Positions 44,358-58,893 of a stretch of 64,000 nt of DNA are shown piece after piece. The DNA is taken from assembly GCF_007004645.1 (NCBI RefSeq), contig NZ_ML660019.1, forward strand, positions 1,074,437 to 1,138,436, read 5' to 3'. The stretch's first letter is position 1. Each line of letters opens with the position of its first letter. Origin of the DNA: Aliiroseovarius halocynthiae. Lineage in GTDB: Bacteria > Pseudomonadota > Alphaproteobacteria > Rhodobacterales > Rhodobacteraceae. A model generated the notes under the pieces. It was given only the letters and a program-made list of their open reading frames with translations. It ran no database searches and was not told the DNA's origin. Made by a program: the position numbers and the translations under genes.

Positions 44358-45416
44358 TCATTCCGCCACGGCAAAGCCATGGATCAGTTGCCGCAGGCCC
44401 AGTGCGGCCCCTGCGATGATCGCCATGAAGGTCACCGGGGCGCCATAATAAAGGATCGAGAATGCTGACAACCCTTGCCCGATTGAGCAGCCAAAGCCGA
44501 TGACAGCCCCAAAACCCATAATGACCGCACCACCGATTTGGCGTTTCAGCTCGCGCGGGTCTTCGCAGGCTTCCCACCGAAAATGCCCTTTGAACAAGCT
44601 GCCGATAAATGCGCCAGCCAGAACGCCAACCACAGACCCGACGCCGAAGTTCAGATTATTGCCAGACGATGTCATAAGATAGATCATCATGTCGCCCAAT
44701 GGCGCGGAATAGGTGTGGCTTTCCACAGGGATGGCCGAGAACCCGTTGGCCAGCACCCACGCGGTGCCACCCCAGCCAATAACGACGGCAACGCCCGCTG
44801 CACTGGCCCAAAGAAGCTCGGTCTGTGCATTGCGCAGTTCCCTGTTGGCCAGCATGGCCGCAAGCAAAATCAACCCCAGACCTATCCCGACATGGGCCGC
44901 GGTCAGGCCCGTCAAATGCTCAAGCGTAGTGGAAATTGAGGGCAGGGCGGATGGATTTGCCGGTGCTTCGGGAAACAGCGCGATGCGCAGCCCCGCCAGC
45001 GGCCCCGAGATCATGACATAGGCGGACAGGCCCATCACTAGTACAATCACAAACGACCGCAGGTCTCCGCCACCCAGTCGCGCCAATGCGCCGAACCCAC
45101 AATTTCCGGACAGCGCCATACCATACCCGAACAGCAGGCCGCCGATGATCGAGGCGAGCGGGTTCCAGCCCAAACGCAGGTAAATCGCCTCGGATGCGGG
45201 CAGGTGTCCAATGGCCATCAAGGCATGGCTGCCGATCATCGCCACACCGATTGCGACGCCCCACATGCGCATCCGCAGACCGGACCCTGCATAAAGCGCG
45301 TCTTCGATGGCACCCAACGTGCAAAACCGCCCCAACCGTGCCGCCAGCCCCAGCAATACACCACCAATCAGCCCAACAAGGGCGGCAAGTGTGGCGTCGC
45401 TAATCCAGTCGTACAT
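44358..45416 (-). CDS. soxT: YeeE/YedE-type membrane protein of the sox locus
   Basis: A 352-residue membrane protein with about nine helices. Conserved Cys are in RFCTLGAIEDALYAGS (about residue 32), SGNCGFGALARLGGGD (about 103) and GFGCSIGQGLSAFS (about 322), the pattern of thiosulfate/sulfur-compound carriers such as YeeE. In Paracoccus, soxT of this family sits beside soxR, as here (51 bases). Likely moves a reduced sulfur compound across the inner membrane; the exact substrate is unproven. Confidence 0.85.
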   Translation of the reverse strand: MYDWISDATLAALVGLIGGVLLGLAARLGRFCTLGAIEDALYAGSGLRMRMWGVAIGVAMIGSHALMAIGHLPASEAIYLRLGWNPLASIIGGLLFGYGMALSGNCGFGALARLGGGDLRSFVIVLVMGLSAYVMISGPLAGLRIALFPEAPANPSALPSISTTLEHLTGLTAAHVGIGLGLILLAAMLANRELRNAQTELLWASAAGVAVVIGWGGTAWVLANGFSAIPVESHTYSAPLGDMMIYLMTSSGNNLNFGVGSVVGVLAGAFIGSLFKGHFRWEACEDPRELKRQIGGAVIMGFGAVIGFGCSIGQGLSAFSILYYGAPVTFMAIIAGAALGLRQLIHGFAVAE

Positions 45417-45467: not shown

Positions 45468-45836
45468 TTATTCGGCCGCTTTAGGCTCTTCCGAAGCCGG
45501 CGTGTCGATCGAACAGAACAGTTCGTAAATCACTTCCAAGATCCGACGCGGTCGGTCATCGGTCAGCGAATAATAGATGGTCTTGCCGTCGCGGCGCGGT
45601 GTCACAAGACCTTCAAGGCGCAGACGCGCCAGCTGTTGCGAGACTGCCGCCTGTCGGGCGTGCAGAAGCTTTTCCAGTTCGGTCACAGATTTTTCGCCGG
45701 TGACCAAATGGCACAGGATCATCAATCGCCCTTCGTGGCTGATCGCCTTCAAAAGGGTCGAGGCATCGCAGGCGCTGGTCATCATCTTGTCCAGCTCGTC
45801 GCGCGACATGTCTTCTTTTATGACGGGCAGTGCCAT
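45468..45836 (-). CDS. soxR: ArsR-family repressor of sox genes, persulfide-sensor type
   Basis: A 122-residue winged-helix repressor. The recognition helix is RQAAVSQQLARLRLEGLV, with the wing RRDGKTIYYSLTD. Cys 42 (LMILCHLV) and Cys 108 (YELFCSI) lie at the positions of the two cysteines that form a polysulfide bridge in SqrR/BigR/SoxR sensors; a third, Cys 23, is extra. By family, the protein leaves DNA when persulfides accumulate. The motif ATTC-N8-GAAT, recalled as this family's site, appears three times in the sox region (47278, 56000, 56652). Confidence 0.92.
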   Translation of the reverse strand: MALPVIKEDMSRDELDKMMTSACDASTLLKAISHEGRLMILCHLVTGEKSVTELEKLLHARQAAVSQQLARLRLEGLVTPRRDGKTIYYSLTDDRPRRILEVIYELFCSIDTPASEEPKAAE

Positions 45837-47221: not shown

Positions 47222-47293
47222 AATTTCGCATGAAATTAGAGCGCTAATGCCTGCTTGCGGGCGGTGAGATAATAATAATTCAAATAACGGAAT
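47222..47293 (+). promoter_or_regulatory. regulatory region upstream of soxX
   Basis: Contains AATTTC-GCAT-GAAATT (47222-47237), a perfect inverted repeat, and ATTC-AAATAACG-GAAT (47278-47293), which matches the recalled SqrR/SoxR-family motif exactly. The second lies within an extended TCAAAT-N6-ATTTGA dyad, 63 bases before soxX. This is where SoxR binding (soxW-soxX gap) is known in Paracoccus. Confidence 0.75.
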
Positions 47294-47355
47294 TTGATGT
47301 TGCGAAAATTGCTTCACATGCGTAGTTTGGCCGCACAACGGATACGGGAGGAAAC

Positions 47356-47832
47356 ATGAAGCGGACAACGATCTCGCTTTGCACCCTGCTTATTGCAGGT
47401 CTGGGAGCGGCACAAGCCGAGACGGTGGTACCTACCGCCGTCGCATTCGAAGAAGGGGCCGTGGCCCAATCACTGACTGGCGTTGCAGGGGATCCTGTTG
47501 AAGGCGCGAAAGTGGTCTCGACAAAATCGCAGGGGAACTGCGTTGCATGTCACGAAATCACTGATCTAGCGGACATCCCGTTCCACGGCGAAGTTGGTCC
47601 CATGTTGGATGGGGCAGGCGATCGCTGGAGCGAGGCAGAGCTGCGCGGCATTCTTGTGGATGCGAAGATGACATTCGATGAATCGATGATGCCATCATTC
47701 TACAAGACGGAAGGCTTCATTCGCCTTGGCAAAGCCTATACCGGGAAAGCCCATGAAGGTGACGTCGAACCGCTGCTGAGCGCTCAGCAGATCGAAGATG
47801 TTGTTGCCTATTTGATGACGCTCAAAGACTGA
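47356..47832 (+). CDS. soxX: c-type cytochrome subunit SoxX
   Basis: A 158-residue monoheme subunit of SoxXA, which oxidatively links thiosulfate to SoxY. The signal peptide is MKRTTISLCTLLIAGLGAAQA, the heme site CVACHEI near residue 61 and the likely Met ligand is in ESMMPSFYKTEG. The length is normal. GGGAGG precedes ATG 47356. First of the run soxXYZA. Confidence 0.94.
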   Translation: MKRTTISLCTLLIAGLGAAQAETVVPTAVAFEEGAVAQSLTGVAGDPVEGAKVVSTKSQGNCVACHEITDLADIPFHGEVGPMLDGAGDRWSEAELRGILVDAKMTFDESMMPSFYKTEGFIRLGKAYTGKAHEGDVEPLLSAQQIEDVVAYLMTLKD

Positions 47833-47871
47833 GCGGGCCGGGCATAGAAATACACTCACAGGAGACAAGAG

Positions 47872-48288
47872 ATGAAATTCACTCGACGTGATGCTCTGGC
47901 ACTTGGGCTTGGCGCAACCGCCGTTGCCATGTTGCCGATGCGCGCACTGGCTGCTGCAGACGAGGCTATCGCGGCCTTCACTGGTGGCGCTGAGACCGGC
48001 GAAGGTGGGATCACCCTGACTGCGCCAGAAATCGCCGAGAACGGCAATACTGTTCCGATTTCGGTCGACGCCCCCGGCGCGGCATCGATTCTTATTCTGG
48101 CAGCGGGCAACCCGACGCCGGGCGTGGCCCAGTTCACCTTCGGTGAGGCTGCTGGCTCGCAAGCTGCATCAACCCGTATTCGTCTGGCCGGAACACAAGA
48201 CGTTGTGGCCATTGCCAAAATGGCTGACGGCAGCTTTGTGAAAGCGCAATCGACCGTAAAAGTCACCATCGGCGGCTGCGGCGGCTAA
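47872..48288 (+). CDS. soxY: sulfur-carrier protein SoxY
   Basis: A 138-residue periplasmic carrier. The Tat signal TRRDALALGLGATAVAML is at the N-terminus. It ends VTIGGCGG, the swinging-arm motif whose Cys carries the sulfur adduct between Sox enzymes. The SoxYZ complex goes through the Tat system on this signal. GGAGACA precedes the start; 17 bases separate it from soxZ. Confidence 0.96.
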   Translation: MKFTRRDALALGLGATAVAMLPMRALAAADEAIAAFTGGAETGEGGITLTAPEIAENGNTVPISVDAPGAASILILAAGNPTPGVAQFTFGEAAGSQAASTRIRLAGTQDVVAIAKMADGSFVKAQSTVKVTIGGCGG

Positions 48289-48305
48289 GTTAGGAGATCA
48301 GAGAT

Positions 48306-48635
48306 ATGGCAAAAGGTTCAAAACCCCGCGTAAAGGTCCCCAAGACGGCTGCTGCCGGCGAAGTTGTGACCATCAAGACCCTGATCAGCCACAAGATGGA
48401 ATCGGGTCAGCGCAAGGATAAAGAGGGCAACCTCATCCCGCGTTCGATCATCAATCGCTTCACCTGCGAGTTTAACGGCAAGTCGGTCATTGACGTGACG
48501 CTGGAGCCCGCAATCTCGACCAACCCTTACGTCGAATTTGACGCAAAGGTTGATGAAGCCGGTGATTTCAAATTCACATGGTACGACGACGATGGTGACG
48601 TGTACGACACCACCAAGTCGATCGCCATCGGCTAA
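48306..48635 (+). CDS. soxZ: SoxYZ partner SoxZ
   Basis: A 109-residue immunoglobulin-like protein that pairs with SoxY and is exported with it, since it has no signal peptide. Typical segments are KPRVKVPKTAAAGEVVTIKTLISH at the N-terminus and FKFTWYDDDGDVYDTTKSI at the end. GGAGATC precedes ATG 48306. Confidence 0.95.
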   Translation: MAKGSKPRVKVPKTAAAGEVVTIKTLISHKMESGQRKDKEGNLIPRSIINRFTCEFNGKSVIDVTLEPAISTNPYVEFDAKVDEAGDFKFTWYDDDGDVYDTTKSIAIG

Positions 48636-48659
48636 GGCCAGCGCAGGGAGGAATATATA

Positions 48660-49508
48660 ATGAAAAAAGGCATCGCAGCTATTCTGGCCGCCTCGACCAT
48701 CTTCGGGGCAGCCACAGCCACGGCCGACGAAAGCGCTGAACTTACCGTGAACGGTGAAATTGACATCGTAACGAAGACGGCCGCGCCTGCACATCTGTCG
48801 GATGTGCTGGACGAAGTAATGTCTGGCTGGCGTTTCCGCTCGGACCAGACGCAAGAAATGCAGATGGACGACTTTGACAATCCCGGCATGCTGGGCGTTG
48901 AAAATGGCGCGGAAATCTGGGCAACGGTAGATGGCTCGGAAGGAAAATCCTGTGCGGATTGTCACGGCGAACCCGAGGAGATGGCAGGCGTCAAAGCTGT
49001 TTATCCGAAATGGAACGCCCAGGCCGGGAAGGTCTTCACCCTGCAGATGCAGGCGAATGATTGCCGGACCAATCGTATGGGCGCAGAAGCCTGGGGCACA
49101 GACAAGGGTCCGGCGATTGACGTCGAAGCACTGTTGGCGTCAGTGTCGCGCGGTATGCCGGTTAACGTGGCGATTGACGGCCCCGGTCATGAGACCTGGA
49201 AGCTGGGTAAAGAGCTTTACTATACCCGCACTGGGCAGCTCGAGCTGAGCTGTGCAAATTGTCACGAAGACAATTACGGCAACATGATCCGCGCTGACCA
49301 CTTGTCGCAGGGCCAGATCAACGGTTTCCCGACCTATCGTCTGAAAAATACCAAGCTGAACGGGGTGCAGTCGCGCTTCAAGGGCTGCGTACGTGACACG
49401 CGTGCCCAGACCTACAAGCCCGGTTCGGACGAGTTCGTGGCGCTGGAAATGTATGTCGCGTCGCGCGGCAATGGTCTGTCGGTCGAAGGCCCGTCGGTCC
49501 GCAACTAA
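48660..49508 (+). CDS. soxA: diheme cytochrome subunit SoxA
   Basis: A 282-residue subunit of SoxXA that forms the Cys-S-sulfonate link on SoxY. The signal peptide is cut near TATADES. Heme sites are CADCHGEPE (about residue 99) and CANCHEDNYG (about 198). The active-site Cys, found as a persulfide or heme ligand, is in SRFKGCVRDTRAQ (about 242). Both hemes are retained, unlike monoheme SoxA variants. A strong hairpin terminator follows at 49517. Confidence 0.95.
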   Translation: MKKGIAAILAASTIFGAATATADESAELTVNGEIDIVTKTAAPAHLSDVLDEVMSGWRFRSDQTQEMQMDDFDNPGMLGVENGAEIWATVDGSEGKSCADCHGEPEEMAGVKAVYPKWNAQAGKVFTLQMQANDCRTNRMGAEAWGTDKGPAIDVEALLASVSRGMPVNVAIDGPGHETWKLGKELYYTRTGQLELSCANCHEDNYGNMIRADHLSQGQINGFPTYRLKNTKLNGVQSRFKGCVRDTRAQTYKPGSDEFVALEMYVASRGNGLSVEGPSVRN

Positions 49509-49516
49509 ATTCACAA

Positions 49517-49552
49517 CCCCGCCCGAACTGGTTTTGGGCGGGGCTTTCTTTA
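49517..49552 (+). terminator. hairpin terminator between soxA and soxB
   Basis: CCCCGCCC (49517-49524) pairs with GGGCGGGG (49536-49543), followed by CTTTCTTTATT. It lies inside what is usually regarded as one sox operon. Confidence 0.85.
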
Positions 49553-49618
49553 TTCGAACACATTCAATCCCAAGCATGGGTTAAGCTTGCAAGGGGTTGG
49601 GAACAAGGAAAACCGCAC

Positions 49619-51316
49619 ATGATCTCTCGCCGCGACTTTCTTCAGGTCTCGATGGCTGCGTCAGCGCTTTACGGTACGTCGGGCTTTGGCAACTGGGCCA
49701 AATTGGCCGCACAGCAGGCGCTGACCCAAGATGACCTTCTGAAGTTTGATACGTTTGGCAATGTCAGCCTGATCCACATCACTGACATTCATGCCCAGCT
49801 GAAACCAATCTATTTCCGCGAGCCCGAGATCAATCTGGGCGTCGGCGCGGCCAACGGCCAGATGCCGCATGTGACCGGTGCTGATTTCCGCAAAGCCTAT
49901 GGGATCGAAGATGGTTCGCCTTCGGCTTATGCACTGACATATAACGACTTTTCCTCGCTGGCGCAGGGATATGGCAAAGTGGGTGGCATGGACCGCGTCG
50001 CAACCGTTGTGAACGCTATTCGCGCCGATCGCCCCGATGCGTTGCTGCTGGACGGCGGTGATACGTGGCACGGGTCATACACCTGTCATCACACCGAAGG
50101 GCAGGATGTGGTCAACGTGATGAATGCGTTGAAGCCAGATGCGATGACCTTCCACTGGGAATTCACGCTGGGATCCGAGCGTGTGAACGAGATCGTAGAA
50201 GGTTTGCCCTTCGCAGCGCTTGGCCAAAACATCTTTGACGCTGAATGGGACGAGCCTGCCGAGCTGTTCAAGCCCTATAAGTTTTTCGAGCGTGGTGGCG
50301 TGAAGGTGGCCGTGATCGGTCAGGCCTTCCCCTATATGCCCATTGCCAACCCGCGTTGGATGTTCCCGGAGTATTCGTTCGGGATCCGCGATGAAAACAT
50401 GCAAGCCATGGTCGATGAGGTCCGCGCGGCAGGCGCCGAGCTTGTTGTCTGCCTAAGCCATAATGGCTTTGACGTGGATAAGAAAATGGCGGGCCGCGTG
50501 AAAGGCATCGACGTGATCTTGTCGGGCCATACACATGACGCGCTTCCCGAGCCGGTGCAGGTCGAGCAGACGTTCATCATTGCTTCGGGCTCGAACTCGA
50601 AATTCGTCAGCCGCATCGATCTGGATGTGCGCGACGGGAAGATGATGGGCATTCGCCACAAGTTGATCCCGATCTTTGCGGACGTAATCACGCCGGATGC
50701 CACGATCACCAAGCTGATCGACGACCAGCGCGCGCCCTATAAGGCCGAGCTGGAAGAGGTAATCGGCACCACTGACACGCTTCTCTATCGTCGCGGTAAC
50801 TTTAACGGATCGTGGGATGACCTGATCTGTGACGCGCTGATCAATGAACGCGAGGCGGACATCGCCATGTCACCCGGCGTCCGTTGGGGGCCGTCGATCC
50901 TGCCGGGTCAGGAAATCACCCGCGAGGACATCTGGAACGTGACCTCGATGTCTTATGGCGAAGCTTACCGCACCGAAATGACGGGTGAATTCATCCACAC
51001 GATCTTGGAAGACGTCGGTGACAACTTGTTCAACCCGGACCCGTATTATCAGCAGGGCGGCGATATGGTGCGCATCGGTGGCATGGGCTATCGCATTGAT
51101 ATCAATAAGCCACAGGGCGAACGCATCACCGAAATGACCCTGTTGAAGACTGGCGAGGCGATTGACCCATCCAAGACCTATGTGGTCGCGGGCTGGGCCA
51201 GTGTGAACGAAGGCACCGAGGGTCCGCAGATCTGGGATGTCGTTGAAAGCCACATCAAGAAACAAGGCACCATCAAGCTGGATCCGAATAACTCGGTTCA
51301 GGTTGTAGGCGCCTAA
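49619..51316 (+). CDS. soxB: SoxB thiosulfohydrolase
   Basis: A 565-residue dimanganese enzyme that hydrolyses the sulfonate from SoxY-S-sulfonate to release sulfate. The Tat signal SRRDFLQVSMAASAL leads the 5'-nucleotidase-like fold: LIHITDIHAQLKPIY (about residue 52), LLLDGGDTWHGSYTCHHTEG (about 142), SHNGFDVDKK and LSGHTHDALPEP. The C-terminal domain starts near residue 370. The length is typical. It stands between two hairpin terminators with 110 and 94-base flanks, so its own promoter or readthrough is needed. Confidence 0.97.
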   Translation: MISRRDFLQVSMAASALYGTSGFGNWAKLAAQQALTQDDLLKFDTFGNVSLIHITDIHAQLKPIYFREPEINLGVGAANGQMPHVTGADFRKAYGIEDGSPSAYALTYNDFSSLAQGYGKVGGMDRVATVVNAIRADRPDALLLDGGDTWHGSYTCHHTEGQDVVNVMNALKPDAMTFHWEFTLGSERVNEIVEGLPFAALGQNIFDAEWDEPAELFKPYKFFERGGVKVAVIGQAFPYMPIANPRWMFPEYSFGIRDENMQAMVDEVRAAGAELVVCLSHNGFDVDKKMAGRVKGIDVILSGHTHDALPEPVQVEQTFIIASGSNSKFVSRIDLDVRDGKMMGIRHKLIPIFADVITPDATITKLIDDQRAPYKAELEEVIGTTDTLLYRRGNFNGSWDDLICDALINEREADIAMSPGVRWGPSILPGQEITREDIWNVTSMSYGEAYRTEMTGEFIHTILEDVGDNLFNPDPYYQQGGDMVRIGGMGYRIDINKPQGERITEMTLLKTGEAIDPSKTYVVAGWASVNEGTEGPQIWDVVESHIKKQGTIKLDPNNSVQVVGA

Positions 51317-51324
51317 AAAGGTTC

Positions 51325-51357
51325 GGCCCGGGCGCAGCTGCATCCGGGCCATTTTTC
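51325..51357 (+). terminator. hairpin terminator between soxB and soxC
   Basis: GGCCCGG (51325-51331) pairs with CCGGGCC (51344-51350), followed by ATTTTTC. Confidence 0.85.
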
Positions 51358-51410
51358 AAGCTTATTTATGCAAATAGGCGAATATGGATATGTAATGGGA
51401 GAGATGCCAG

Positions 51411-52691
51411 ATGGGTGACAGCTCGAACAATCACGGACCCAGCCGGCGCGGGTTCCTGAAAGGGGCCGCTGCGACAGGTGCAGCCCTTGGCGCTGCGGGT
51501 GCAGTAAAGGCAGAAGGTGATCCGCTGATCACTGAAGTACAGGAATGGGCTTCTAGTCTGGGCGAGGGCGTGGACGCTACGCCTTATGGCATGCCGATTG
51601 AGTTCGAAAGCGATGTCGTGCGCCGGAATGTGGAATGGTTGACGGCGGATCAGATCAGCTCGATCAACTTCACGCCGATCCATGCGCTGGACGGCACGAT
51701 CACCCCGCAGGGTTGCGCGTTCGAACGCCACCACTCGGGCGCGATCACGCTGAAGAAAGAAGACTATCGCCTGATGATCAACGGTCTGGTCGATACGCCG
51801 CTGGTGTTCACCTATGAAGACCTCGAGCGTTTCCCGCGTTCGCAGCAGACTTTCTTCCTTGAATGCGCGGCGAATACCGGCATGGAGTGGGCGGGCTCGC
51901 AGCTGAACGGCGCGCAGTACACTCATGGCATGATCCACAACATGGAATATACCGGCGTGTCGCTGCGGACCTTGTTGGAAGAGGCTGGCCTGGATGCCGC
52001 TGGCGATCTGAAAGACAAATGGGTTTACGTCGAAGGCGCAGATGCGTCGTCGAACGGTCGCTCGATCCCGATGGAAAAGGCGCTGGACGACTGCATGGTC
52101 GCCTTCAAAGCCAACGGCGAAGCCCTGCGGATGGAGCATGGCTATCCGGTGCGTCTGGTTGTGCCCGGCTGGGAAGGCAATATGTGGGTCAAATGGCTGC
52201 GTCGGATCGAGGTGATGGACAAGCCGGTTGAAAGCCGCGAAGAGACTTCGAAATACACAGACACGCTGGAAGACGGCACCAGCCGCAAGTGGACATGGGC
52301 GATGGATGCGAAATCCGTCGTGACCAGTCCCAGCCCGCAGATGCCCATCAAACACGGCAAAGGCCCGCTGGTTATCACCGGCTTAGCATGGTCCGGCAAC
52401 GGCGCGATCACCGCGGTTGATGTCTCGCTGGATGGTGGCGTGACCTGGCAAGAGGCGCGTTTGGCCGAGCCCGGCAAGAAGATGGCGCTGACCCGCTTCT
52501 ATCTGGACATCAACTGGGACGGATCCGAGATGTTCCTGCAATCCCGCGCGATGGACGAAACCGGCTATGTGCAACCCACCAAGGCGCAACTGCGCGAGGT
52601 ACGCGGCCTGAACTCGATCTATCACAACAACTGCATCCAGACGTGGCACGTGAATGCAAAAGGAGAGGCGAACAATGTCGAAGTTTCCTAA
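51411..52691 (+). CDS. soxC: molybdenum sulfite-dehydrogenase-type subunit SoxC
   Basis: A 426-residue molybdopterin subunit of Sox(CD)2, the sulfur dehydrogenase that oxidises the sulfane sulfur on SoxY. The Tat signal SRRGFLKGAAATGAALGAAG is followed by the Moco-binding domain, with the Mo-ligand Cys in FFLECAANTGMEW (about residue 156), and a C-terminal dimerisation domain. Having soxCD means complete oxidation to sulfate without sulfur globules. Its last 17 bases overlap soxD. Confidence 0.96.
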   Translation: MGDSSNNHGPSRRGFLKGAAATGAALGAAGAVKAEGDPLITEVQEWASSLGEGVDATPYGMPIEFESDVVRRNVEWLTADQISSINFTPIHALDGTITPQGCAFERHHSGAITLKKEDYRLMINGLVDTPLVFTYEDLERFPRSQQTFFLECAANTGMEWAGSQLNGAQYTHGMIHNMEYTGVSLRTLLEEAGLDAAGDLKDKWVYVEGADASSNGRSIPMEKALDDCMVAFKANGEALRMEHGYPVRLVVPGWEGNMWVKWLRRIEVMDKPVESREETSKYTDTLEDGTSRKWTWAMDAKSVVTSPSPQMPIKHGKGPLVITGLAWSGNGAITAVDVSLDGGVTWQEARLAEPGKKMALTRFYLDINWDGSEMFLQSRAMDETGYVQPTKAQLREVRGLNSIYHNNCIQTWHVNAKGEANNVEVS

Positions 52692-53781
52692 ATTCCTGAT
52701 GGTGGCCTCGGTTGCCGCTTTGACCGCCGCGCCTGCGATGGCCGAAAAACTGGGCCTGGGTCGCGCTGCGACCGAGGCCGAAGTGGCGGCTTGGGATCTG
52801 GATATCTTCCCGGACGGATCAAACCTGCCTGCAGGCAAGGGAGATGTTTGGACCGGAGAAGAAGTGTTTGCAGACGCTTGTGCGGTGTGCCACGGCGAAT
52901 TCGCAGAAGGCGCGGGCAACTGGCCGAAACTGGCCGGGGGTGCGGATACGCTAGATCACGAAGATCCGCTGAAAACCGTTGGGTCCTATTGGCCGTATCT
53001 GTCGACCACCTTCGACTATGTGCGCCGTTCTATGCCTTTTGGTGCCGCTGGCACGCTGTCGGATGATGATGTCTATGCCATCGTGGCTTACATCCTCTAT
53101 TCAAACGACCTTGTGGATGATGATTTCGTTCTGTCGAAAGAGACGTTTTCGGATGTGGTTCTGCCCAATGCAGAAGGCTTCATCGTCGATGATCGTGCTG
53201 AGACGGAATATGGCACGTTCACCAATCGCTGCATGAGCGACTGTAAGCCCGGCGCGGTCGAAATCACGACAACCGTGGTGTTCCCCGGTGATCCGAACTC
53301 GGGTTTTGATGCGACGCCAATCAGCCAGGCTGTGATGGGCACCGCCGGAGCAACACCTGATGCGGCGGCCTCGACAGAAGAGGCGTCCGCTGAAGACGCG
53401 CCGGCCGAAGAAACCGCAGTCGTAGGAGAGGTTGCAGCACCCGCTGTGATGGCGCTTGACGAAGAACTGGTCGCCAAAGGCGAGAAGGTCTTTAAGAAGT
53501 GTAAGGCTTGTCACAAGGTGGGCGACAAGGCCAAGAATGGAACCGGTCCAATCTTGAATGGTGTCTTTGGCCGTGCGGCAGGCACGGTTGATGGGTTTAA
53601 ATACTCGAAGCCCATGCTGGCAGCAGCCGAAGGTGGTCTGGTCTGGGATGAGACTGAGCTGTCCGGCTATCTGGCCAACCCACGCAAATATATGAAGGGG
53701 ACGAAGATGTCCTTTGCGGGGTTGAAAAAGGACAAGGATGTCGCGGCAATTTTGGAATTCCTGAAGTCGCACAGCCAATAA
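52675..53781 (+). CDS. soxD: diheme cytochrome subunit SoxD
   Basis: A 368-residue cytochrome partner of SoxC. The signal peptide MSKFPKFLMVASVAALTAAP is followed by a first heme domain (CAVCHGEFAEG, about residue 72), an Ala/Glu-rich linker (about 230-255, TEEASAEDAPAEETAV), and a second cytochrome c2-like domain with CKACHKVGDKAKNGTGP (about 277) and the Met ligand in KGTKMSF. The C-terminal domain is closely similar to the first half of SoxE. GGAGAGG lies just before ATG 52675. Confidence 0.94.
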   Translation: MSKFPKFLMVASVAALTAAPAMAEKLGLGRAATEAEVAAWDLDIFPDGSNLPAGKGDVWTGEEVFADACAVCHGEFAEGAGNWPKLAGGADTLDHEDPLKTVGSYWPYLSTTFDYVRRSMPFGAAGTLSDDDVYAIVAYILYSNDLVDDDFVLSKETFSDVVLPNAEGFIVDDRAETEYGTFTNRCMSDCKPGAVEITTTVVFPGDPNSGFDATPISQAVMGTAGATPDAAASTEEASAEDAPAEETAVVGEVAAPAVMALDEELVAKGEKVFKKCKACHKVGDKAKNGTGPILNGVFGRAAGTVDGFKYSKPMLAAAEGGLVWDETELSGYLANPRKYMKGTKMSFAGLKKDKDVAAILEFLKSHSQ

Positions 53782-53924
53782 TCTGGCAAAGGTCGTCATG
53801 AGGCGGGCGTGGCCAACTTGGCTGCGCCCGTTTCTGTTTGCTGCGCAATAATTGTGCGCAATATGCATGCATCAGTATATGAAAATTATTGAGTGGATTT
53901 GCTTCACCCGTTAAACTCGCGTCT

Positions 53925-54635
53925 ATGGGACGGATTCGAAACGCTGCGATAGGGCTTGTGATAGCGATTTGCGCCGCAACGCCTTCTTTTTCAAACGAAA
54001 TCGGCAGTGCCGAGGATGGCGAGACGCTGTGGAAGGAATGCAAGTCCTGTCACGCGATAGGTGAGGGGGCGAAGAACCGCGTCGGCCCGCATCTCAACGG
54101 TATATTTGGCCGTCGTGCGGGGGCCGAGGACGGGTTTAAATACTCGAATGGTCTAACCCGAATGGGCAAAGATGGCCTGATTTGGGAATTTGATCTGCTA
54201 GATCGGTATATCGAGAACCCAAAGGCTTTCGCGTCGGACACGCGCATGTCGTATCGAGGGCTGAAAGACGAACAGAAACGCGCAGATTTGCTGGCATTCT
54301 TGCGCCGTTACTCGGACAATCCGGGCGATATACCCGAAGCAGCCCCCACTGTGGCGGGCACAGATCATTCCGTCGATCCGACCATTCTGGCCATTCAGGG
54401 GGACCCCGAATATGGCGCGTACCTGTCGTCGGAATGTACGTCCTGCCATCAGCTGTCAGGGGAAAATGACGGCATTCCGGGCATTGTTGGCTGGCCTGCC
54501 GAAGACTTCGTGATTGCAATGCACGCCTATAAGGACAAGTTCCGCCCGCATCCCGTGATGCAGATGATGGCTGGTCGCCTGTCCAACGATGAAATCGCCG
54601 CGTTGGCGGCATATTTTGAAGCACTCGATTCTTAA
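53925..54635 (+). CDS. soxE: diheme cytochrome SoxE (sulfide dehydrogenase cytochrome subunit)
   Basis: A 236-residue exported cytochrome with two c-type domains: CKSCHAIGEGAKNRVGP (about residue 37) and CTSCHQLSGENDG (about 173). Together with SoxF it forms a flavocytochrome c sulfide dehydrogenase. The first domain shares long runs with the C-terminal domain of SoxD (for example GPHLNGIFGRRAG versus GPILNGVFGRAAG). ATG 53925 gives a signal peptide, but no clear ribosome site is seen; a TTG at 53889 is an alternative. Confidence 0.9.
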   Translation: MGRIRNAAIGLVIAICAATPSFSNEIGSAEDGETLWKECKSCHAIGEGAKNRVGPHLNGIFGRRAGAEDGFKYSNGLTRMGKDGLIWEFDLLDRYIENPKAFASDTRMSYRGLKDEQKRADLLAFLRRYSDNPGDIPEAAPTVAGTDHSVDPTILAIQGDPEYGAYLSSECTSCHQLSGENDGIPGIVGWPAEDFVIAMHAYKDKFRPHPVMQMMAGRLSNDEIAALAAYFEALDS

Positions 54636-54711
54636 CGAATTAATGCGCGCCAGGAAGGGTTCGCGAGTCTGCGATGGCGGTGCGCTTATACCGCCAATAA
54701 GGGAGGAAGAA

Positions 54712-55986
54712 ATGAAGATTAACAGACGTTTGTTCATGGGGGGCGCTGCCGCTGGTGCGGCCGCCACAACCCTTTCCGCGCCGATGGTCCATGCGGCCGG
54801 TCATGGGAAGCCGAAGGTCGTTGTGATCGGTGGCGGTGCCGGTGGTGCAACTGCCGCGCGCTATATTGCGAAGGACAGCAAGGGCGAGATCGAGGTCACG
54901 CTGGTAGAGCCGACGCGCAGTTACTATACCTGTTTCTTCTCGAACCTATATATGGCGGGCTTCCGCGAGCTGGGGTCTATTGCGCATAGCTATGGTAAGC
55001 TGGCTGCCGAATACGGCATTAACGTCGTTCATGACTGGGCTGTTGGGATCGACCGCGAGGCGCGTACTGTGTCGCTGGCGGGCGGTGGCACGCTGAGCTA
55101 TGACCGTTTGGTTCTGTCGCCGGGTATCGACTTTATCGATGGTGCCGTCGAGGGATGGGACATCAGCCACCAGAATGCCATGCCGCATGCCTATAAGGCT
55201 GGATCGCAGTCCGAGCTGCTGAAAGCACAGGTCGAAGCTATGCCCGAAGGTGGGACGTTTGCGATGGTGGCTCCGCCCAACCCGTTCCGCTGCCCTCCTG
55301 GGCCGTATGAGCGTATCTCGATGATCGCGCATATCCTGAAAGACAAGAACCCGACGGCGAAGATCATCATCGCTGATCCGAAGCCCAAGTTCTCTAAAAT
55401 GGCGCTGTTCCAGGAAGGGTGGGGCAAGCATTATGACGGAATGATCGATTGGGTTGGTCCAGATTTCGGCGGCGACAATGTGTCGGTGAACCCGCATGAT
55501 ATGACCCTCACCATTGATGGCGAAGTCACCAAAGTTGATGTGTGTAATGTCATTCCCGCCATGAAAGCGGGCAAGATCTGCGATATGGCAGGCATCACAG
55601 ATGGGAACTGGGCCCCGGTAAACCCGCATACAATGCAATCGCGTGTTGACGAGAACATCCACGTTCTGGGCGATGCAAGTTCGCAAGGCGATATGCCTAA
55701 ATCCGGCTTTGCCGCGAACAGCCAAGCGAAAGTGGCTGCAATGGCAGTGCGGTCGGCCCTCACAGGGTCGAAGCTTTTCCCCGCCAAGTTTACCAATACG
55801 TGCTGGTCGCTGATTGACACCGATGATGGTGTCAAAGTCGGCGCAAGTTACGAGGCCACAGACGAGAAAATCGCCAAAGTGGATGGCTTCATCAGCCAGA
55901 CTGGCGAGGATGCTGAGCTGCGCAAAGCAACATATGAGGAAAGCATCGGCTGGTACGCCGGGATTACCTCGGACATGTTTGGCTGA
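54712..55986 (+). CDS. soxF: flavoprotein subunit SoxF (sulfide dehydrogenase)
   Basis: A 424-residue FAD protein of the sulfide:quinone reductase-like superfamily. The Tat-like signal NRRLFMGGAAAG precedes the FAD site VVVIGGGAGGATAARYI near residue 34. Cys residues in SYYTCFFSN and VDVCNVIPAMKAGKICDMAG are at the usual catalytic places, and LGDASSQGDMPKSGFAANSQ is the second FAD motif. FCSD C-terminal domain with FTNTCWSLIDT. GGGAGG is nine bases before ATG 54712. Confidence 0.93.
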   Translation: MKINRRLFMGGAAAGAAATTLSAPMVHAAGHGKPKVVVIGGGAGGATAARYIAKDSKGEIEVTLVEPTRSYYTCFFSNLYMAGFRELGSIAHSYGKLAAEYGINVVHDWAVGIDREARTVSLAGGGTLSYDRLVLSPGIDFIDGAVEGWDISHQNAMPHAYKAGSQSELLKAQVEAMPEGGTFAMVAPPNPFRCPPGPYERISMIAHILKDKNPTAKIIIADPKPKFSKMALFQEGWGKHYDGMIDWVGPDFGGDNVSVNPHDMTLTIDGEVTKVDVCNVIPAMKAGKICDMAGITDGNWAPVNPHTMQSRVDENIHVLGDASSQGDMPKSGFAANSQAKVAAMAVRSALTGSKLFPAKFTNTCWSLIDTDDGVKVGASYEATDEKIAKVDGFISQTGEDAELRKATYEESIGWYAGITSDMFG

Positions 55987-55998
55987 TCTTCTTGCCTG

Positions 55999-56016
55999 TA
56001 TTCGCCCTGGCGAATA
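55999..56016. promoter_or_regulatory. palindrome matching the persulfide-sensor motif, after soxF
   Basis: TATTCGCC-CT-GGCGAATA is a perfect 8-base inverted repeat. Its core ATTC-GCCCTGGC-GAAT (56000-56015) matches ATTC-N8-GAAT. It lies 90 bases before the DUF302 gene and no T-run follows, so it is more likely an operator than a terminator. Confidence 0.6.
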
Positions 56017-56104
56017 TGTTTAACACAATGCGGGGTCCGGTTGTCCGGGCCTCGTTTCAGTTTGGGGCTTCGCGCGAACGGCCCTCATTACAGGAGGATA
56101 CTTA

Positions 56105-56566
56105 ATGCGCAATTACCTTGGATTGGCTATGCTGGCGGCAACGGTTTTCGCCACGCCGAGCTTCGCAGATGGTCATGGAAAGCAGATGACGGACCACGCT
56201 GTTACCTATGCTTTTGATGGCGAATTCGATGATGCGACCTTTGCTGTGGAATCTGCGATCGTAGGGCAGGGGCTGGTGATCGATTATGTCAGCCACACGG
56301 GCGAGATGTTGGAGCGCACCAAGGGTGATGTCGGGTCTGACATTACGATTTTCGATGCTGCGGACATCTTCTTGTTCTGCTCGGCACGGGTTAGCCGCGA
56401 GGTGATGGAGGCGGATCCGCAGAACATCGCGTTCTGCCCGTATAGCATCTATGTGACCCAGACAGATGGCGAGGTGCGCGTGGGATATCGCACCTATCCT
56501 AACGGCCCCATGCAAAAGGTTCAGTCACTTCTGGATGGGATTGTTCTGGAAGCGGTCGCCGAATAG
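56105..56566 (+). CDS. exported DUF302 protein
   Basis: A 153-residue protein with a signal peptide (MRNYLGLAMLAATVFATPSFA). The rest matches the DUF302 fold pattern (DDATFAVESAIVGQGLVIDYVSHTGEM, DITIFDAADIFLFCSARVSREVME, AFCPYSIYVTQ). Two Cys are present (residues about 101 and 118). DUF302 proteins recur next to soxEF in roseobacters and have no established role. AGGAGG is six bases before the start. A terminator follows. Confidence 0.82.
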   Translation: MRNYLGLAMLAATVFATPSFADGHGKQMTDHAVTYAFDGEFDDATFAVESAIVGQGLVIDYVSHTGEMLERTKGDVGSDITIFDAADIFLFCSARVSREVMEADPQNIAFCPYSIYVTQTDGEVRVGYRTYPNGPMQKVQSLLDGIVLEAVAE

Positions 56567-56587
56567 GATAGATTTGGCTTGAATATC

Positions 56588-56625
56588 AAGGCCTCGCATG
56601 TCGCAATGACGAGCGAGGCCTTTTT
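56588..56625 (+). terminator. terminator after the DUF302 gene
   Basis: AAGGCCTCGC (56588-56597) pairs perfectly with GCGAGGCCTT (56613-56622), followed by TTTGC. Confidence 0.9.
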
Positions 56626-56649
56626 GCTTGACGTAGGGTTGTAGAAAAA

Positions 56650-56669
56650 ACATTCAAAAAAATGAATGT
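56650..56669. promoter_or_regulatory. persulfide-sensor operator upstream of the pmpAB-like pair
   Basis: ACATTCA-AAAAAA-TGAATGT, a perfect 7-base inverted repeat whose core is ATTC-N8-GAAT. It lies 69 bases before ATG 56738, in the only gap upstream of the sulfur-handling run 56738-60683. Confidence 0.75.
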
Positions 56670-56737: not shown

Positions 56738-57172
56738 ATGATCGAAACTGAATTCACACCGCTGGCGGCATCATTCGGAGGCGCGCTGATTGGCTTGGCC
56801 TCGGTGCTTCTGATGTGGGTCCGCGGCAACGTGCTGGGCGCCACAGGCATCTTGGCGGGGTTCATGCAGCCCAACAGCTCGGCTGATTGGGCTTGGCGCG
56901 CGGCTATTCTGGCCGGTATGCTGACGGGCCCGTTCGTCTATCTGTTTATCACAGGCGGGTTTCCTGAAATCCAAGTTCCCGTCAGCACTCTGTCGATGAT
57001 CATCGGCGGTGTCATTGTCGGGATCGGCGTGACCTATGGGTCGGGCTGCACCTCGGGGCATGGTGTCTGCGGCATGTCGCGCTTTTCTCCGCGCAGCTTC
57101 GTGGCCACGCTAGCCTTCATGGCAGGGATCACCGTCATGGTGTTCGTCACCCGCCACGTTTTTGGCCTGTAA
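56738..57172 (+). CDS. YeeE/YedE half protein (PmpA-like)
   Basis: A 144-residue membrane protein with four helices. The Cys motif GSGCTSGHGVCGMSRFSPRSF near residue 110 is that of sulfur-compound carriers. Such half-size proteins work in pairs; the partner begins 12 bases downstream. In alphaproteobacteria this pair stands beside the BigR/SqrR regulon. ATG 56738 fits the family start MIETEFTPLAA. Confidence 0.88.
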   Translation: MIETEFTPLAASFGGALIGLASVLLMWVRGNVLGATGILAGFMQPNSSADWAWRAAILAGMLTGPFVYLFITGGFPEIQVPVSTLSMIIGGVIVGIGVTYGSGCTSGHGVCGMSRFSPRSFVATLAFMAGITVMVFVTRHVFGL

Positions 57173-57184
57173 GGAGGGACCGTT

Positions 57185-57628
57185 ATGCAGTTGATCGTCA
57201 TCTATGCCATCGGCCTTATCTTTGGTCTTGGAATCTCTATCTCGGGCATGGCTAACCCTGCCAAAGTATTGAACTTCTTCGACTTTGCGGGGACATGGGA
57301 TCCCAGCCTGATCTTCGTGATGGGCGCGGCCATTCTGGTCACCGCTCCGGGATATTTCTTGGTTCTCAAAGGGCCAAAGCCTGTTTTTGGCAATGCCTTC
57401 ACGCTGCCTGGCACCAAGTTGATTGACCGCCGTCTGGTTGGCGGGTCCTTCACGTTCGGTTTGGGGTGGGGGCTGGCCGGCTTCTGCCCGGGTGCCTCTC
57501 TTCCTGTGATCTCGACGGGTAACCCGGATGTTCTGATTTTCACAGTGTCTCTTATAGCGGGCATTTTCATCGCCCGCTTCTTGATCCAGCGGAGTGCGCA
57601 GCAACGCGACGCCGCACAAGCAAGTTAA
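57185..57628 (+). CDS. YeeE/YedE half protein (PmpB-like)
   Basis: A 147-residue partner of the preceding gene. It has GLGISISGMANPAKVLNFFDF at the N-terminus, GWGLAGFCPGASLPVIS near residue 100 with the conserved Cys, and four helices. AAGGAGG precedes ATG 57185. Together the two would form one full-length YeeE-like carrier. Confidence 0.88.
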   Translation: MQLIVIYAIGLIFGLGISISGMANPAKVLNFFDFAGTWDPSLIFVMGAAILVTAPGYFLVLKGPKPVFGNAFTLPGTKLIDRRLVGGSFTFGLGWGLAGFCPGASLPVISTGNPDVLIFTVSLIAGIFIARFLIQRSAQQRDAAQAS

Positions 57629-57666: not shown

Positions 57667-58554
57667 ATGACCGACAATTCCGTACACACAGACCTGATCC
57701 CCGAAGTGAAAGCCTTCTTCGAGCCGGATTCGAATACGATTTCCTATGTGGTCAAAGACCCGACTTCGAACGCTTGCGCTGTGATCGACAGTGTCATGGA
57801 TATTGATTACGCCGCTGGCCGGATTTCGCATGAACATGCGGATGAGATCATCGACTATATCAAATCCGAAGGTCTGAAACTGGAATGGCTGATTGAAACG
57901 CATGTTCATGCGGATCACCTGTCAGGCGCCCCCTATATTCAACAGGAACTTGGCGGCAAGATCGGTATCGGCAGCCAGATTACTGTTGTGCAGGATGTGT
58001 TCGGCAAGGTCTTCAATGAAGGCACTGAGTTCCAGCGTGATGGCAGCCAGTTTGATGCCCTGTTTGAAGACGGGGACACCTACATGATTGGCAACATGAA
58101 GGCGCTTGCCCTTCACACGCCGGGTCATACGCCAGCATGTATGGTGCATGTGATCGGGAATGCCGGGTTTGTTGGCGACACGCTGTTCATGCCGGACGGA
58201 GGATCAGCCCGTGCTGATTTCCCGGGCGGAGATGCGGGTATCCTTTATGATTCGATCCAGAAGGTGCTGGCGTTGCCGGACGACACCCGTCTATTCATGT
58301 GCCACGATTACGGCCCCAACGGCCGTGACATCCAGTGGGAGACCACCGTGGCTGTAGAAAAAGAGCACAATATTCACGTCGGCGCTGGGAAAACGCGCGA
58401 AGAGTTCGTGAAGTTCCGTACGGAACGGGATGCTCAGTTGGATATGCCGCGCCTGATTATTCCCTCGCTTCAGGTCAATATGCGTGCGGGCGACATGCCC
58501 CCCGCGGATGAGGACGGAAACACCTTCCTGAAGGTACCGGTAAACGCGCTTTAA
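57667..58554 (+). CDS. persulfide-dioxygenase-like MBL protein
   Basis: A 295-residue metallo-beta-lactamase-fold protein of the ETHE1/Blh group, which oxidises glutathione persulfide to sulfite. The iron-site motif THVHADHLSGAPY is near residue 78, HTPGHTPACM near 149, and the late His in LFMCHDYGP near 218. The Asp bridging residue is in FVGDTLFM. Members beside DUF442 and YeeE pairs are the BigR-controlled type. It probably removes persulfides from the cytoplasm. Confidence 0.9.
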   Translation: MTDNSVHTDLIPEVKAFFEPDSNTISYVVKDPTSNACAVIDSVMDIDYAAGRISHEHADEIIDYIKSEGLKLEWLIETHVHADHLSGAPYIQQELGGKIGIGSQITVVQDVFGKVFNEGTEFQRDGSQFDALFEDGDTYMIGNMKALALHTPGHTPACMVHVIGNAGFVGDTLFMPDGGSARADFPGGDAGILYDSIQKVLALPDDTRLFMCHDYGPNGRDIQWETTVAVEKEHNIHVGAGKTREEFVKFRTERDAQLDMPRLIIPSLQVNMRAGDMPPADEDGNTFLKVPVNAL

Positions 58555-58563
58555 GAGGTTCCA

Positions 58564-58893
58564 ATGCAAACCAAAAAACTGGATGACACCATCACTGTGT
58601 CCCATCAGATCGCGATCGAGGATGTACAGACCATTCGCGATCAGGGCTTCACTCTGCTCATGTGCAACCGTCCGGATGGCGAAGATCCGGGACAGCCCGC
58701 ATGGGGCGAAGTGAAAGCCGCCGCCGAGGCCGCCGGCCTGAAAACAGCGTTCCTGCCCGTTAGCTCGCGGGATGAAGCAATCGCGATGAAAGAGCCGTTT
58801 CAGGTGGAAATGGCGTCTGCAGATGGACCGGTCTTTGCATACTGCCGTACCGGCACGCGTTGCGAGATTTTGTGGACGCTCTCGAAAAACTGA
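58564..58893 (+). CDS. DUF442 / TIGR01244-type phosphatase-like protein
   Basis: A 109-residue protein with a DUF442 fold (VSHQIAIEDVQTIRDQGFTLLMCNRPDGE) and the PTP-like loop FAYCRTGTRCEILWTL. In Blh proteins of other species this domain is fused to the persulfide dioxygenase, and a rhodanese-like role in sulfur transfer has been suggested. Here it is a separate gene only 9 bases after the MBL gene. Confidence 0.87.
   Translation: MQTKKLDDTITVSHQIAIEDVQTIRDQGFTLLMCNRPDGEDPGQPAWGEVKAAAEAAGLKTAFLPVSSRDEAIAMKEPFQVEMASADGPVFAYCRTGTRCEILWTLSKN

Follow-up and report, generated by a model that had tools for sequence, protein, structure and literature searches.

The sox region of Aliiroseovarius halocynthiae (contig NZ_ML660019.1) carries three copies of the inverted repeat ATTC-N8-GAAT, which raises the question of whether a single persulfide-sensing repressor governs the genes behind them and how far its control extends. 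We examined 64,000 nucleotides of this contig, positions 1,074,437 to 1,138,436 (the window), for which an earlier note made from the sequence alone had proposed one such repressor for the sox operon, a DUF302 protein and persulfide removal in the cytoplasm. Judged from sequence, the three sites are very probably operators of the ArsR-family protein SoxR encoded in the same window, with a regulon that would also include an SQR-like gene, a rhodanese gene, a TsoY-family gene and a second YeeE/YedE gene elsewhere in the genome. The features of the locus are collected in Table 1.

ATTC-N8-GAAT sites in the window and the genome

A pattern search combined with a codon-usage gene finder bore out the three exact, intergenic matches described at 47278, 56000 and 56652. 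The window holds five matches in total, however, the two that had gone unmentioned lying within a predicted gene (31620) and between two convergent predicted genes (39979). The description of each site as part of a longer dyad fits the 56000 site (TATTCGCC/GGCGAATA) and the 56652 site (ACATTCA/TGAATGT) but not the 47278 site, which has a single added outer pair together with a second, overlapping dyad, TCAAAT-N6-ATTTGA. Shuffled windows contained 1.36 matches on average, in agreement with the chance rate of about one per 65 kb that had been given, and the maximum among 100 shuffles was 4, so that five were never reached. Since the gene finder is simple and was trained on 20 window genes, the counts of intergenic sites are approximate.

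The whole-genome search that the earlier note had suggested as a check found 41 matches in the 3.39-Mb genome, or one per 83 kb, and 36 of them are outside the window. Of the 41, 13 were promoter-placed, meaning intergenic with a predicted gene start at most 200 bp downstream, and 22 lay inside predicted genes. All spacings from N5 to N12 combined gave 238 matches, and since the seven spacings other than N8 averaged 28 against 41, the excess at N8 is modest. Site count alone is weak evidence; it is position and conservation that carry the case. By the codon-usage gene calls, 19 of the 41 N8 matches were intergenic, while of 39 decoy matches, which have other spacings and were all taken from the initial 0.71 Mb of contig C1, 10 were intergenic and 4 promoter-placed. 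None of the genes behind these four decoys was sulfur-related, as judged from the encoded proteins. Sulfur-linked genes stood behind seven of the 13 promoter-placed N8 sites, namely the three in the window and four elsewhere: the SQR-like gene (L007; best NCBIfam match 220 bits, below the model cut-off of 525), the rhodanese gene (L014), the TsoY-family gene (L028; above cut-off) and the second YeeE/YedE gene (L033), which lies outside the window. The DUF302 gene was counted as sulfur-linked solely by its position beside the sox operon. The predicted regulon is, with these four genes, wider than the earlier note saw.

Five of the other promoter-placed sites precede what we take to be genes for an EAL-domain protein, a GntR-type regulator, leuB, dnaN and a gene without known function. 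The remaining one (L015:1997-2012; C1:1579746) forms the dyad ATTCGCAATCGCGAAT and lies 77 bp upstream of an AhpD/CMD-like gene whose product has a CxxC motif; this gene may be an eighth member of the sulfur regulon.

Conservation of the sites

Conservation was followed in 149 genomes of the family, each with another genus code. For each gene at most 30 of the best loci, with that of the own genome among them, were searched for an exact site from -300 to +20 relative to the gene match. The site was present at 27 of 30 loci for soxX, 24 of 30 for rhodanese, 21 of 30 for TsoY and 14 of 26 for the second YeeE gene. At any one spacing of 3-7 or 9-13, a set never contained more than one locus with a match, and for six other half-site pairs at N8 the number was between 0 and 3. 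A set of 80 named loci was also found with soxF. Here the site preceded soxX in 60 of the 66 loci with at least 150 bp of upstream sequence, and YeeE in 12 of 15; among full 330-bp regions upstream of soxX it was found in 59 of 65, against 0.005 expected per region from mononucleotide shuffling.

The nearest named relatives belong to Aliiroseovarius, with soxF identity of up to 93%. In the 14 loci in or nearest to this genus (L317-L329, L333), every one of the 12 with a soxX gene has an exact soxX site, the YeeE site was kept in 12 of the 13 that hold YeeE (exception L333), and the DUF302 site in 12 of 14 (exceptions L325 and L333).

Two genomes with no SoxR relative at E <= 1e-6, G128 (soxX locus L087) and G019 (rhodanese locus L194), have no site at these genes either, which is as expected, though the cases are few. 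An exact site was seen about 107 bp upstream of the regulator gene itself in one of 70 loci (L309; two of the rows are repeats), and there is therefore no case for autoregulation. Further sites occur within some sox clusters. In L331, L332, L335, L338-L341, L344, L346 and others, an exact site, often ATTCACACATGCGAAT, lies about 2.4 kb past the soxX site, near where soxB begins in the window, and in L336, L337, L347 and L348 another lies 4.1-4.2 kb on, at about the start of soxC; both genes were judged by distance.

SoxR and its paralogues

SoxR contains an ArsR-type winged helix (Pfam HTH_5, above cut-off), and the Cys42 and Cys108 that the earlier note had read in it were confirmed. No other protein of its kind was matched in the genome at E <= 0.001. 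Among solved structures the best relative is entry 6o8l, which we take to be SqrR of Rhodobacter capsulatus. In a regulator tree of 69 proteins, built on few columns, it falls within a SoxR clade (30 rows, support 100/98) and not beside SqrR, and 29 of the 30 members of this clade lie within 5 kb of a soxX match. SoxR scored 94.1 bits against the BigR model NCBIfam NF040642, and since this misses the cut-off of 155 the protein was not filed as BigR. A BigR-type operon was likewise rejected, as the dioxygenase operon contains no bigR and soxR lies about 11 kb away on the other strand. On the features tested, the best reading is that the protein is a member of the SoxR group that would work like SqrR.

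Relatives of SoxR at E <= 1e-6 are widespread, with at least one in 130 of the 149 genomes and two or three in many. The tree separates from the SoxR clade a clade of unlinked paralogues (32 rows, 100/99), present in 37 of the 149 genomes when delimited at E <= 1.1e-38 (next match 3.3e-37). Residue 68 lies in the DNA-reading helix. It could be read in 32 of the 37 paralogue proteins, and in all 32 both cysteines are kept and methionine replaces Gln68; Gln68 is found in 30 of 30 SoxR rows, in 6 of 6 other rows and in the SqrR fragment.

The paralogue clade goes together with a difference in the base beside ATTC. For the sites before rhodanese, TsoY and the second YeeE gene we recorded this base in each half, omitting the SQR, YeeE/PDO and DUF302 sites (9 rows). 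Genomes with the clade gave C 44, T 28, A 18 and G 8, and genomes without it A 29, G 9, C 4 and T 2. Halves of soxX sites were A 43, G 8, C 2 and T 1; in genomes with the clade all 24 had A. At least one C half was found in 33 of 49 sites with the clade versus 4 of 22 without, or, by genome, in 21 of 24 versus 4 of 16 (Fisher p 1.3e-4). The mean A/G share per genome was 0.84 in the 16 genomes without the clade versus 0.27 in the 24 with it (permutation p 5e-5). Both p-values are exploratory, since the grouping of C/T against A/G was chosen after the sites had been seen. The six clade genomes giving both kinds of site had A in 12 of 12 soxX halves and in 5 of 32 other halves; in the four without the clade the figures were 7 of 8 and 9 of 14. 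This within-genome contrast is independent of kinship between genomes. The overall pattern is partly one of kinship, the clade genomes being largely related.

A proposal that we hold in even balance is that two specificities underlie this pattern. SoxR, with Gln68, would read ATTC flanked by A or G, and the unlinked Met68 paralogue would read ATTC flanked by C or T; where the paralogue is lacking, as in A. halocynthiae, one SoxR would run the whole sulfur response through SoxR-type sites at the paralogue's promoters. Several observations weigh against this proposal. The TsoY and second-YeeE gene trees each offer only one independent pair on well-supported branches, too small a number to judge repeated origin of the switch; when each row is scored by the majority of its halves, 3 of 21 TsoY rows and 1 of 14 second-YeeE rows (4/35) disagree; and rhodanese taken alone is weak, a C half being found in 6 of 12 sites with the paralogue versus 3 of 12 without. 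Some of the genomes scored as lacking the clade are incomplete or carry another Gln68 paralogue. In the own genome, the soxX and SQR sites (2 of the 7 sulfur sites) each have one C-flanked half.

These same two sites, with a half of the kind the paralogue would prefer, also bear on the possibility that some of the sites, though genuine, are bound by a different regulator. A second SoxR paralogue is present in many genomes of the family, and the half-sites may be common to ArsR relatives. In the A. halocynthiae genome, however, a single SoxR-type protein was found at E <= 0.001, and the base beside ATTC in the rhodanese, TsoY and second-YeeE sites there is always A or G, as it is in most SoxR sites. 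We consider another regulator unlikely.

Tandem exact sites, with starts 24 to 27 bp apart, were seen before TsoY (L168, L169, L170, L173, L177, L180, L182, L183, L186) and before the second YeeE gene (L231, L238, L242), as if two dimers bound side by side. All 12 tandems come from genomes with the paralogue clade, and none was found among the 10 site-bearing loci from genomes without it.

The DUF302 site and its possible promoter

In this genome the 56000 site is a near-perfect GC-rich dyad that follows directly on the stop codon of soxF, with a terminator-like hairpin behind it (56030-56055). The site might for these reasons be part of an RNA hairpin ending the sox transcript and no operator at all. 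In the near-genus alignment, by contrast, ATTC and GAAT are kept while the inner eight bases drift strongly, and in several loci, among them L320, L321, L326, L328 and L329, the pairing of the inner arms is lost with the half-sites intact. This pattern favours a protein site over an RNA hairpin. The hairpin scan, too, lists the downstream hairpin and not the 56000 dyad, and we regard the terminator explanation as quite improbable. The YeeE/PDO site shows the same drift of inner bases between conserved half-sites. The downstream hairpin itself, which has similar letters in several near-genus loci, could terminate the sox transcript or form the leader of the DUF302 mRNA.

The DUF302 site lies within the spacer of the promoter-like sequence TTGCCT-N17-TATGTT at 55992-56020. 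Of the 13 near-genus rows with the site, all have TTG and 12 have TATGTT, at a spacing of 17 bases, and we read the sequence as a promoter whose spacer holds the site. It is absent from the promoter scan listing because its 8 of 12 consensus bases fall below the scan threshold.

That the three window matches arose by chance is very improbable, for although the genome count of 41 is moderately above the mean of 28 at other spacings, the soxX site stands at a fixed place across the family, where chance is already contradicted, and all three sites are kept near the genus.

The proposed regulon

The reading of the three sites as SoxR operators is helped by the presence of a single SqrR/SoxR-type repressor, by the published SqrR motif and by the conservation of all three near the genus, and the earlier proposal of one repressor stands. 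We propose that without sulfane sulfur a SoxR dimer would occupy ATTC-N8-GAAT at or near the promoters and so block transcription of the sox operon, the DUF302 gene and the YeeE/PDO/DUF442 operon. Persulfide or polysulfide would join Cys42 to Cys108 and the DNA would be released. The same SoxR would serve the SQR-like, rhodanese, TsoY and second YeeE genes elsewhere in the genome. Binding, repression and release by persulfide are inferred for this SoxR from its relatives (PMC10451225, PMC9143464).

A number of findings weigh against this reading. More than half of the genome matches (22/41) are inside predicted genes, and no sulfur role is known for the genes behind 6 of the 13 promoter-placed sites. 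At two sites the direction of control is assumed, because a divergent gene lies on the other side of the gap: a uvrA-like gene at the rhodanese site and another gene at the second-YeeE site. In the family sample the SQR and YeeE/PDO sites were each present at 4 of 30 loci, own genome included. The soxS-soxV gap, which we take to be bound by SoxR in Paracoccus, has no exact site here or in 62 of 65 named loci (present in 3 of 65). The DUF302 site was found in 1 of 30 family loci, that of the own genome. Among 43 named loci it was present in 12, each of which belongs to Aliiroseovarius or is nearest to that genus. As this is the most local of the sites, the DUF302 part of the proposal is weaker, though the site is kept near the genus.

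Table 1. Features of the sox locus in the window, with positions counted from its first nucleotide
Feature	Position	Strand	Basis or remark
soxT-like YeeE-family membrane protein	44358..45416	-	Adjoins soxR; sequence; name soxT assumed
soxR, ArsR-family repressor	45468..45836	-	Pfam HTH_5; Cys42, Cys108, Gln68
ATTC-N8-GAAT site	47278..47293		Exact, intergenic, 78 bp upstream of soxX
soxX, first gene of sox operon (to ~55986)	47356..47832	+	Order and sequence; sox gene names presumed from these
ATTC-N8-GAAT site	56000..56015		Exact, intergenic, 105 bp upstream of DUF302
GC-rich hairpin	56030..56055	+	Hairpin scan; between DUF302 site and DUF302 gene
DUF302 protein	56105..56566	+	Pfam PF03625; sulfur link is the adjoining sox operon
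ATTC-N8-GAAT site	56652..56667		Exact, intergenic, 86 bp upstream of first YeeE gene and PDO operon
YeeE/YedE-family protein, first of pair	56738..57172	+	Pfam Sulf_transp
YeeE/YedE pair, second member	57185..57628	+	No NCBIfam match; name assumed
ETHE1-type persulfide dioxygenase (PDO), resembles Blh dioxygenase half	57667..58554	+	NCBIfam NF040641, profile positions 140-423, 376 bits, below cut-off 625
DUF442-type sulfur transferase, resembles Blh transferase half	58564..58893	+	NCBIfam TIGR01244, above cut-off

Relation to known systems

The attribution of the motif to SqrR in the earlier note agrees with the literature, where ATTC-N8-GAAT is printed as the deduced SqrR site; the stretch of katG bound by YgaV has no such site (PMC9774250). 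SqrR of R. capsulatus releases DNA on formation of a tetrasulfide link and is described for sulfide-dependent photosynthesis (PMC9143464). It shares with the present protein the ArsR fold, the two sensing cysteines, Gln68, the motif and, as predicted here, the repression of sqr. Unlike SqrR, the protein here is linked to sox, falls in the SoxR clade and has sites that include the sox operon. The SoxR proteins of Paracoccus, Pseudaminobacter and Hyphomicrobium denitrificans are likewise sox-linked ArsR repressors of sox promoters with two cysteines. Polysulfide releases the Hyphomicrobium protein from the promoters that it binds, those of sox and of other sulfur genes (PMC10451225), and in vitro the same four probes were bound by both SoxR and sHdrR of H. 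denitrificans (PMC12423496). Unlike in those cases, a single SoxR here seems to serve the SQR, PDO, rhodanese, TsoY and two YeeE loci as well. The BigR operon of Xylella and Agrobacterium also places a dioxygenase and a DUF442 transferase under a Cys42/Cys108 repressor, which recognises the -10 region of the operon (PMC5823870); unlike there, the operon here has no bigR and the Blh halves are separate genes.

A regulon of this kind is already known from gene neighbourhoods, from which sqr, sox, pdo, rhd and YeeE-type genes were inferred to be repressor targets (PMC12423496). A search of titles and abstract openings in the largely open literature found no description of the Met68 clade or of a flanking-base code, and no account of such breadth under a single SoxR at unlinked places; a literature search for TsoY found no relevant paper. 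DUF302 is named in the abstract of a Thermithiobacillus genome paper (PMC5037610).

The correlation between the flanking base and Gln or Met at residue 68 offers a bench test that involves a single residue and a single base. If the proposal is true, the sulfur-oxidation regulons of many genomes of the family could become readable from sequence.

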